A DNA stretch of 64,000 bases, taken from the NCBI RefSeq assembly GCF_013359755.1, contig NZ_JABMCJ010000094.1, positions 558,001-622,000 on the forward strand, given 5' to 3'. The stretch comes from Tardiphaga robiniae (GTDB lineage Bacteria > Pseudomonadota > Alphaproteobacteria > Rhizobiales > Xanthobacteraceae). A program made the position numbers and the translations under genes. Shown here one piece after another: positions 55,988 through 57,509 of this stretch. Below the pieces are notes generated by a model that made no database searches, was not told the DNA's origin, and saw only the letters and a program-made list of their open reading frames with translations. Position 1 is the stretch's first letter, and each line of letters begins with the position of its first letter.

Positions 55988-56006
55988 CCGGTTTCATTGA
56001 AACCGG
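55988..56006. promoter_or_regulatory. Perfect 19-base palindrome upstream of the ROK gene
   Basis: CCGGTTTCA-T-TGAAACCGG has two 9-base arms around one base. It lies about 110 bases before the ROK gene start and 120 bases before the TadG-like gene start, in the divergent region. It could be an operator. A related AACCGGCTC block recurs at 56068-56076. Confidence 0.4.
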
Positions 56007-56113
56007 CTCGCGGGACCGACGCAAAAGGGGAGCGGTACGATCATCCCGGCGGGGCGATGAAACAAACCGGCTCCCGGGGCATTGTCATGCGGTTCTAGTC
56101 TGGCAGGGGCAAT

Positions 56114-57208
56114 ATGGCTGAAGACACAATGACGACCGTAGGCATCGGCAATCACGGTGCCAAGCGGCTGCCGTCCGTTGATGTGGACACGTTCAACATC
56201 GAGCTGAAGGACGACAACGGCTTTCTCGGTGACCGCGCCAGCAAGGGCGCTTTTCAGCGCATACTGGATGATCTCAGAAAGCCATTGAAGAAAAACGGCG
56301 ACGATCCGCTCGGCAAAAAGGCTGCCAACGAGATCAGTAAATCCAGCCTCGACGAAATCCTGCTTGGCGACGATGTGGCCGCGGCTGCACTCGTCCATGG
56401 TGCGATCGAAGAATTCGCGCGGGAGCTGGCTTATGTCACGCAGCGCTTCTTCAAGACGAAGGCCTGGGCAGATACGGAATGCATCGTGGTCGGCGGCGGT
56501 TTCCGCCAGAGTCGTGTCGGGGAACTTGTTATTGCGCGCACGGACATCATCCTCAAGGCCGAGGATCTCAAGGTTGCGTTGGTGCCGATCCGGTTTCATC
56601 CAGATGAAGCCGGCCTGATCGGTTGCCTGCATCTGGCGCCGTCATGGATTTTCGAAGGTTACGACAGCATTCTGGCGGTCGACATCGGCGGCTCCAACAT
56701 CCGTTGTGGCGTGGTCGAAACCGCATGGAAGAAATCGAAGGATCTCTCCAAGGCCGCGGTATGGAAGTCCGATCTCTGGAAACATGCCGATGATGAGCCG
56801 ACGCGTGAAGGCGCCGTCAAGCGGTTAGTGAAGATGCTGAAGGATCTGATCTCCGCCGCCGACAATGAAGGCCTCAAGCTGGCGCCGTTCATCGGCATCT
56901 CATGCCCGGGGGTGATCAACGAAGACGGCACCATCGCGAAGGGAGCGCAGAATCTTCCGGGTAATTGGGAAAGCAGCAAGTTCAACCTGCCGGCCTTGCT
57001 CGCCGAAGGCATTCCCACAATCGGGGATCACGATACTGCGGTGCTCATGCACAATGACGGCGTTGTCCAAGGCCTCAGTGAAGTCCCTTTCATGCAGGAC
57101 TTCGAACGCTGGGGCGTGCTGACGATCGGAACGGGGCTGGGCAATGCTCGCTTCACCAACCGCAAGAAAGAGAAGGACGACAAGAAGGCGAAGAAAGACA
57201 AGGATTGA
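56114..57208 (+). CDS. ROK-family protein with circularly permuted domain order
   Basis: A 364-residue protein. ROK elements appear in swapped order. Residues ~70-175 have the features of the C-terminal ROK lobe: helix with LLGDD (84-87), helix VHGAIEEFARELAYVTQRFF, CIVVGGGFRQSRVGE (123-137) and PIRFHPDEAGLIGCLHLAP (158-176). Residues ~185-345 then give the N-terminal lobe: AVDIGGSNIRCGVV (phosphate 1), CPGVINEDG (264-272), LPGNW (281-285), GDHDTAVLM (304-312, with candidate base Asp307) and LTIGTGLGNARF (336-347). The usual zinc motif CxCGxxGC is absent. A Lys/Asp-rich tail ends the protein. Kinase activity is uncertain. Confidence 0.8.
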   Translation: MAEDTMTTVGIGNHGAKRLPSVDVDTFNIELKDDNGFLGDRASKGAFQRILDDLRKPLKKNGDDPLGKKAANEISKSSLDEILLGDDVAAAALVHGAIEEFARELAYVTQRFFKTKAWADTECIVVGGGFRQSRVGELVIARTDIILKAEDLKVALVPIRFHPDEAGLIGCLHLAPSWIFEGYDSILAVDIGGSNIRCGVVETAWKKSKDLSKAAVWKSDLWKHADDEPTREGAVKRLVKMLKDLISAADNEGLKLAPFIGISCPGVINEDGTIAKGAQNLPGNWESSKFNLPALLAEGIPTIGDHDTAVLMHNDGVVQGLSEVPFMQDFERWGVLTIGTGLGNARFTNRKKEKDDKKAKKDKD

Positions 57209-57509
57209 GCAGGACCATTGAGCGTCCCGGTGCCGCCTCGGCCAATGGCCGAGTGCATGCATCCGTCGGCGAATCATCCTGGCGCCGCCATGGCTCGTCA
57301 TGTCGCGCGTCCAACCATAGCGTGCGTTGCCGCTGCGAATCTGCAACGAAAAGGCTGGCTTTCTAGTCCACGCGCCAGCTAGAGCCAGCTTTTGCGGCTC
57401 TGCGGGCAATTGGGTGCGGATTTTCCGCTCTGCCCGTCTTGTCTGGCCCGCCATCCTCGCCTAGAACTCCGCGCAACCACCCACGGGCGACCGTGGGTCT
57501 TGGCGCCTT
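57209..57509. other. Non-coding stretch before tRNA-Ser
   Basis: No convincing gene was found in these 300 bases. A perfect hairpin ACCCACGG-GCGA-CCGTGGGT (57479-57498) with a GNRA-type loop lies 11 bases before the tRNA and may be a processing or regulatory feature. Confidence 0.5.

Follow-up and report, generated by a model that had tools for sequence, protein, structure and literature searches.

Can the two lobes of a ROK-family protein exchange places in the chain in nature, and what would a protein of this kind do? The question is raised by a gene in a stretch of 64,000 nucleotides of Tardiphaga robiniae DNA (the window), the product of which had been described in a first-pass annotation, made from the letters of the DNA, as a circularly permuted ROK-family protein that has lost its zinc motif.

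Order of the two lobes

Residues 187-349 of the protein match positions 2-141 of the 294-position Pfam ROK profile (PF00480) with an E-value of 7e-7 and the first half is unmatched; the gathering score is passed (29.5 bits vs 22.9) through this lobe only. In NCBIfam, residues 106-175 match the end of the N-acetylmannosamine kinase model (219-286 of 288, E 0.004), which is also reached by the N-terminal half alone (E 0.049).

ROK profiles made from 27 ordinary ROK proteins of genomes of the window's order and genus, ROK matches of 200 aa or less being dropped, have been compared by hhalign with a 20-member profile of the permuted family. In native order residues 185-351 align with ROK positions 4-148 (score 81) and a second match places residues 35-177 on ROK positions 177-311 of 313 (score 48). 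The correspondence of residues 70-180 to the C-terminal half of ROK, which the first-pass annotation had proposed to look for, is found in this second match. On stepwise rotation of the family profile the optimum lies at cut points 178-186, where a single alignment covers ROK 4-311 of 313 with scores of 113-114 (E 8e-16 to 1.1e-15); a second ROK master raises them to 118-119. Against a short PPGK-like master (L150), rotation leaves the two pieces unmerged, at a score of no more than 72.5.

The N-terminal half could instead be an unrelated domain fused before a truncated ROK half. Such a fusion is consistent with the window protein's own N-half being without a Pfam domain and with a search of the PDB sequences, in which the N-half profile finds no ROK at E-values up to 10. 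It is nevertheless highly improbable, as the profile-profile match of this half to the ROK C-lobe lies far above those of shuffled profiles: the unshuffled N-half scores 47 by hhalign, against maxima of 20.0 and 21.7 for column-shuffled halves (60 per half), and reversed halves score 15.5 and 13.4. A second N-half profile, made of 29 diverse members, scores 46 with the ROK C-lobe, the maximum of 100 shuffles being 23.4. When single N-halves are searched, 8 of the 29 match Pfam ROK at E-values up to 0.05 (best 0.0017), with ROK ahead of every other family and the window protein's own N-half not among the eight. Three ROK kinase models of NCBIfam are matched by 4, 2 and 2 of the 29 (best E 1.2e-4), alongside scattered unrelated matches at E 0.011 or weaker. 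The merging of both matches on rotation also argues against a fusion.

Rotated single sequences of four proteins still match Pfam ROK over no more than profile positions 2-150. Rotation brings the window protein to 31.0 bits, and only two NCBIfam models then span both of its lobes, namely BglK (3-330) and glucokinase (3-301). Among PDB entries, residues 102-175 of the family profile reach residues 218-286, at the end of E. coli NanK (2aa4), with an E-value of 0.1 only.

Homology to both ROK lobes is present and the canonical lobe order is absent; since the C-lobe comes first and DIGGS is situated at 190-194, the window protein has been classed as a permuted ROK variant and not as an ordinary member. 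With two lobe matches in native order that merge on rotation, the original proposal is borne out, and it may be regarded as established at the level of sequence that in the 364-aa protein the ROK fold has undergone natural circular permutation. Its motifs had been placed correctly (IVVGGGF at 124-130, DEAGLIGCLHLA at 164-175, DIGGS as above, CPG at 264-266, LPGNW, GTGLG and the Lys-rich tail), save that LLGDD, which is present, is counted at 83-87 and not at 84-87.

The AlphaFold2 model of the full-length protein (pLDDT 83.5, pTM 0.82) has the N-acetylmannosamine kinase domain of GNE as its top PDB match in Foldseek (2yhy, E 4.6e-5, 170 columns, target TM 0.41). Lower-ranked matches are to other proteins with actin-like folds, namely exopolyphosphatases, ROK glucokinases and repressors, hexokinases and Hsp70. 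As the GNE match extends over about half a ROK protein, it would fit one half being alignable in sequence order and speaks for that half only. Folded alone without an alignment, the N-half gave an uninformative model (pLDDT 34.1), and the Foldseek output holds no aligned ranges. The two lobes of the permuted protein would presumably be packed as in ROK proteins.

Conserved residues, zinc loop and C-terminal tail

Conservation has been counted in members chosen by the family profile alone: of 165 loci 164 gave a match, 160 of them over almost the whole profile, with 139 distinct proteins. The count omits L127 (no match), the partial matches L018, L021, L124 and L128, duplicates and 38 loci fetched for ordinary ROKs or NepR. 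An earlier set of 142 proteins, without L180, duplicates and sequences of up to 330 aa, had been picked mostly by motif (DIGGSN, GTGLGNA and GGG in permuted order), so that invariance in it is partly by construction; it agrees with the profile-alone count save for one change at D40 (141/142). The features are listed in Table 1.

Table 1. Features of the permuted ROK gene and its product in the window; fractions are of the 139 distinct proteins chosen by the family profile
Feature	Position	Strand	Residues and remarks
EcfG-like promoter match GAAAC-N16-CATT	56059..56083	+	55 nt before start codon; two letters off GGAAC-N16-CGTT
Permuted ROK-family gene	56114-57208	+	ORF, ATG start, 364 aa plus stop
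HGAxxLP segment	56153..56173	+	14-20; His14 in 138/139, remaining one a gap in a truncated copy
Degenerate zinc-loop equivalent	56204..56242	+	31-43; no Cys; GFLG aligned to GCxE
ROK C-terminal lobe, first in chain	56216..56644	+	35-177; profile comparison
IVVGGG motif	56483..56500	+	124-129; G127-G129 in 139/139
AGLIG	56609..56623	+	166-170; aligns to end of ordinary ROKs
New joint, old C- to old N-terminus	56636..56671	+	about 175-186; rotation optimum 178-186
ROK N-terminal lobe, last in chain	56666..57166	+	185-351 (hhalign), 187-349 (Pfam)
Phosphate-1 loop DIGGSN	56681..56698	+	190-195; D190, G192, G193, N195 in 139/139
CPG motif	56903..56911	+	264-266; 139/139
NLPGNW	56951..56968	+	280-285; N280-G283 and W285 in 139/139
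HND motif, putative catalytic Asp315	57050..57058	+	313-315; equivalent of ROK (E)ND; 139/139
Phosphate-2 loop GTGLG	57128..57142	+	339-343; 138/139, remaining one a gap in a broken copy
Lys-rich tail	57164..57205	+	351-364; outside fold; pLDDT <50 at 354-364

Asp307, which had been put forward as the catalytic aspartate, does not hold this place, as it is Asp in 114 of the 139 proteins only; the equivalent is the invariant Asp315. Residues G39 and D40 are likewise found in 139/139, and the segment G339-A345 shows a single gap among the 139, in a broken copy. The invariance of the catalytic motifs in the permuted family speaks for an active enzyme.

The Glu and His of GExGH and the Glu of GCxE are sugar contacts in ROK kinases. 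His14 coincides with the His of GExGH in the alignment to one ROK profile (L155) and is displaced from it by two residues in that to another (L140). The Glu of GExGH has no acidic counterpart in the permuted family and that of GCxE, in the zinc loop, aligns to Gly39 with Asp40 adjacent, so that sugar binding may differ or be lost. A protein that does not phosphorylate and binds a sugar or a sugar phosphate as a stress sensor or scaffold would be in keeping with the missing Glu, with the absence of zinc cysteines and with the lack of an operon for sugar catabolism. We consider such a role unlikely, given that HND, the P-loop and CPG are invariant in 139/139 and GTGLG is kept in 138/139, and that neither Pfam nor NCBIfam shows a DNA-binding or other extra domain in the window protein. 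No helix-turn-helix is matched in the two databases at E-values up to 1, so the protein is without the N-terminal HTH that marks the ROK repressors. A defence or phage protein was also considered and rejected, PADLOC and PHROGs giving no match at E-values up to 0.1.

The loss of the zinc motif is confirmed as far as the cysteines are concerned: residues 31-43 hold none, and CxC is found within the first 70 residues of the matched domain in 0/139 members. The loop itself has not been excised at the new termini as had been supposed, since an aligned stretch persists near the new N-terminus. CxCGxxGC, missing in the permuted family, is also missing in several ordinary ROKs of the sample. The Lys-rich tail is present at the end of the window protein as described and is confined to some lineages: its length varies among relatives, it is missing in L025, L027 and L028, and the stretch following GTGLGNA comprises 5 to 44 residues that are Lys-rich in some lineages only.

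Distribution, ancestry and genomic context

The genome that carries the gene gives a single match in a search with the protein. The nearest named relatives, among the best 80 of at least 521, are from Tardiphaga robiniae (94% identity) and Bradyrhizobium sp. NFR13 (93%). The gene is under purifying selection, with dN/dS of 0.063-0.126 against nine relatives. This ratio and the occurrence of the same order in many genomes, single-contig ones included, and in plasmid records make an assembly error, a frameshift or a chance ORF hardly credible; nothing in the window copy speaks for it, and what there is comes from distant copies, some of which have in-frame stops in the match or at its edge (L121 is broken). 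One or two such stops are seen in the matches of L027, L030, L117 and L121-L124; the stop of L027 resembles an ordinary last codon, and the matches of L121 and L124 are shortened. Two long ORFs (212 and 184 aa) lie antisense to the gene on the minus strand, at 55994-56632 and 56900-57454, and are most likely shadows of a high-GC coding strand.

Searches of genomes and plasmids were made with native-order queries and gave matches in 30 of 61 genomes (own included), among them 18/18 of the window's genus. A draw of class genomes gave matches in 17 of 385, 16 of them across most of the profile. In a draw from the phylum 34 of 398 genomes match, 21 across most of the profile and 13 with weak partial matches like those of ordinary ROKs; five of the 21 belong to other classes. 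A scan of species genomes gave at least 521 relatives among 599 candidate stretches, of which the best 80 were used. The survey of relatives suggested in the first-pass annotation thus finds the permuted order common to other families and to other classes of the phylum. Matches are also present in 207 of 72,556 plasmid records, mostly from Rhizobium (111) and Sinorhizobium (79); in 204 of these, 80% or more of the query is covered at a single place. The plasmid annotations among the matches listed are 'ROK family protein', 'hypothetical protein' (twice), 'glucokinase' (once) or no feature.

An unpermuted sister was sought with a rotated query in 190 class genomes and none was found at E-values up to 0.01; eight genomes gave two half matches each and one a weak partial match. 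In a tree computed after rotation, which omits L188 and four ROK rows of three loci (L142, L145 and L159), 21 members form one group with support of 100/100, which a long branch separates from 23 ordinary ROKs. The place of the group among ROKs is unsure because of the long branches, and it is not joined to the PPGK-like ROKs.

The window's genome encodes a second ROK (L150, at G000:C80:137165-137533) in canonical order, with an open frame of 226 aa and no zinc Cys motif, which looks like a polyphosphate glucokinase. A Pfam ROK search of this genome finds only L150 and misses the permuted gene, since just half of the permuted protein matches Pfam. The absence of zinc cysteines from this second ROK, seemingly of polyphosphate type, is one of two points in favour of a permuted kinase that uses polyphosphate and not ATP; the other is that the best NCBIfam match of the window protein is polyphosphate-glucose phosphotransferase (E 5.4e-6, far below the cut-off). 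The match is, however, limited to the lobe that is common to ROKs, N-acetylmannosamine kinase is instead the best-scoring model for the S. meliloti member, and the tree keeps the group apart from PPGK-like ROKs, and we regard a polyphosphate-dependent enzyme as quite improbable.

The neighbouring genes vary. The trehalose-phosphatase gene otsB is divergent to the permuted ROK gene in R. laguerreae, R. etli and a Shinella; in R. leguminosarum CB782 a 'haloacid dehalogenase' stands in its place. The neighbour in S. meliloti is an M42 peptidase annotated to the NAGGN osmoprotectant system, and in Bradyrhizobium sp. 195 and Ensifer canadensis neither of these neighbours occurs; another two regions are unannotated. 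Plasmid p195_2 of Bradyrhizobium sp. 195 (L169) has stress-type genes nearby, encoding a ferritin-like protein, a PRC-barrel protein and two Hsp20. In the best 80 of at least 521 relatives, which are mostly titled Bradyrhizobium, Rhodopseudomonas, Nitrobacter, Afipia or Tardiphaga, the nearby genes include, as named by eye, an obgE-like one at 40 loci and an rplU-like one at 36, and no recurrent catabolic partner is found. No neighbour cluster occurs in more than 3 of 25 further loci examined with simple scripted gene calling. Identification of the S. meliloti copy with SMb20484 or SMb20472 has been rejected, as SMb20484 is SupA in the parts of the literature considered and SMb20472 is arcB2.

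The upstream region suggests a link to the general stress response. The EcfG motif of R. etli is GGAAC-N16-CGTT in the sections considered of PMC3892343, and likewise of PMC4167512. When the 110 nt before the gene are compared with GGAAC-N16/17-CGTT, the best match reaches at least 7 of 9 letters in 122 of 129 regions and at least 8 of 9 in 95, as against 9.1% and 0.9% of 2580 random windows from the same loci, which are mostly coding. The 129 regions, which are related by descent, derive from the 142 motif-picked proteins after removal of 11 duplicates and 2 regions shorter than 60 nt. The exact motif is found in 12 of them, 48-86 nt before the gene, six from Rhizobiaceae and six from other records. 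Copies close to that of the window have mostly GAAAC or GCAAC at -35 and not GGAAC.

By our own count, the RpoE2-dependent promoter of SMc01509 in S. meliloti reads GAAAC-N16-CGTT and that of rpoE5, which responds to RpoE5 also, GGAAC-N16-CATT in the parts considered of PMC6180224. The window's genome encodes nepR (assigned by Pfam), flanked by ecfG-like and divergent phyR-like genes (L196, 902-2685, by eye), and its nepR promoter is GGAAC-N16-CATT by eye. These variants, from nepR of its own genome and from SMc01509 and rpoE5, make GAAAC-N16-CATT plausible as a promoter in the window. The -10 elements seen by eye at L196 are CATT and CGTA instead of CGTT. In the portions considered of the general-stress literature, PMC6180224, PMC3892343 and PMC4167512 included, the permuted ROK gene is not named.

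Among the carrier genomes, NepR was found in 17 of the 20 that belong to the window's class and in none of the five from other classes, so EcfG cannot account for the members outside the class. As judged from the promoter-like motifs, alphaproteobacteria at least probably express the gene as part of the general stress response (PhyR-NepR-EcfG). A near-palindrome, G[ACG]AAC[ACT]-N3-5-G[GT]TTCC, also spans the -35 element in 58 of the 69 distinct regions before the gene, mostly 53-64 nt upstream (L031-L110, the regions of the best 80 of at least 521 relatives minus duplicate or short ones); shuffles gave a mean of 0.015 and at most 1. It is perhaps the site of a second regulator. A divergent EcfG promoter was rejected as its explanation, with 0/69.

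Possible function and relation to known systems

We consider it likely that the window encodes a circularly permuted, zinc-free ROK sugar kinase, probably induced by stress, which phosphorylates a hexose or a related sugar; we infer kinase activity, the substrate and stress control in vivo. A short linker, made up of residues about 175-186, joins the old C-terminus to the old N-terminus, and the break that opens the chain falls between the GTGxG strand, now at the C-terminus, and the GExGH/zinc segment, now at the N-terminus. Closure over the sugar and the phosphate donor is expected as in ROK kinases, without the structural zinc, since both actin-like lobes, the phosphate motifs and the catalytic Asp are kept.

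A more extended reading is proposed tentatively, at somewhat less than even chances: one ancient permutation would have founded a separate zinc-free branch of ROK kinases, kept in alphaproteobacteria and some other classes of the phylum. In alphaproteobacteria this branch would have come under the general stress response, and its substrate or its phosphate donor would differ from those that known ROK kinases use. If true, this would make the group the first case in the ROK/hexokinase superfamily for which a natural permutation is described. Whole two-lobe enzymes that have been circularly permuted in nature and have kept their active site intact are not known to be common. No published natural ROK permutation was found in the portions considered of the mostly open literature. 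No word beginning with 'permut' occurs in the text considered of a review from 2025 on the glucose kinase superfamily (PMC12696579), and 'ROK', 'kinase' and 'actin' are absent as whole words from the main text of a 2025 paper on a circular permutation method (PMC12667903). A classification of kinases mentions, in the part considered, permutation inside fold groups generally (PMC1079889).

The permuted ROKs, with at least 139 distinct versions in probably several hundred genomes, are labelled plainly 'ROK family protein', and they are likely to have been overlooked under this label because half-matches to Pfam hide the permutation. Since many bacteria associated with soil or plants have retained the permuted order together with the active-site residues, the group looks like a real, overlooked enzyme family. 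It points to an unstudied, probably stress-related enzyme in rhizobia and their kin, and it offers a natural experiment on the tolerance of the actin-like sugar-kinase fold for new termini and for a missing zinc site.

The permuted protein shares with the ROK family, which comprises glucokinases, N-acetylmannosamine kinases and the NagC/Mlc repressors, both lobes and the P-loop, PG, ND, GTGxG and GGG motifs; it differs in the reversed lobes and in having no zinc Cys motif and no HTH, and for one sugar-contact Glu no counterpart was found. The N-acetylmannosamine kinase domain of GNE (2yhw/2yhy), which gives the top PDB sequence matches of the family profile (E 2e-4), has the canonical order, and about half of it is alignable at once with the permuted protein. 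Polyphosphate-glucose phosphotransferase (NF045942), which has the best NCBIfam score with the window protein, on the DIGGT-GTGLG lobe, is shorter and of canonical order, and the score is 26.3 bits against a cut-off of 250. The YRG/YawG-YlqF and cpRAS GTPases are, in the part considered of PMC2430557, also natural permutants with a rotated motif order in a conserved enzyme fold; theirs is the P-loop GTPase fold, unlike the actin-like sugar kinase fold of the permuted ROK.
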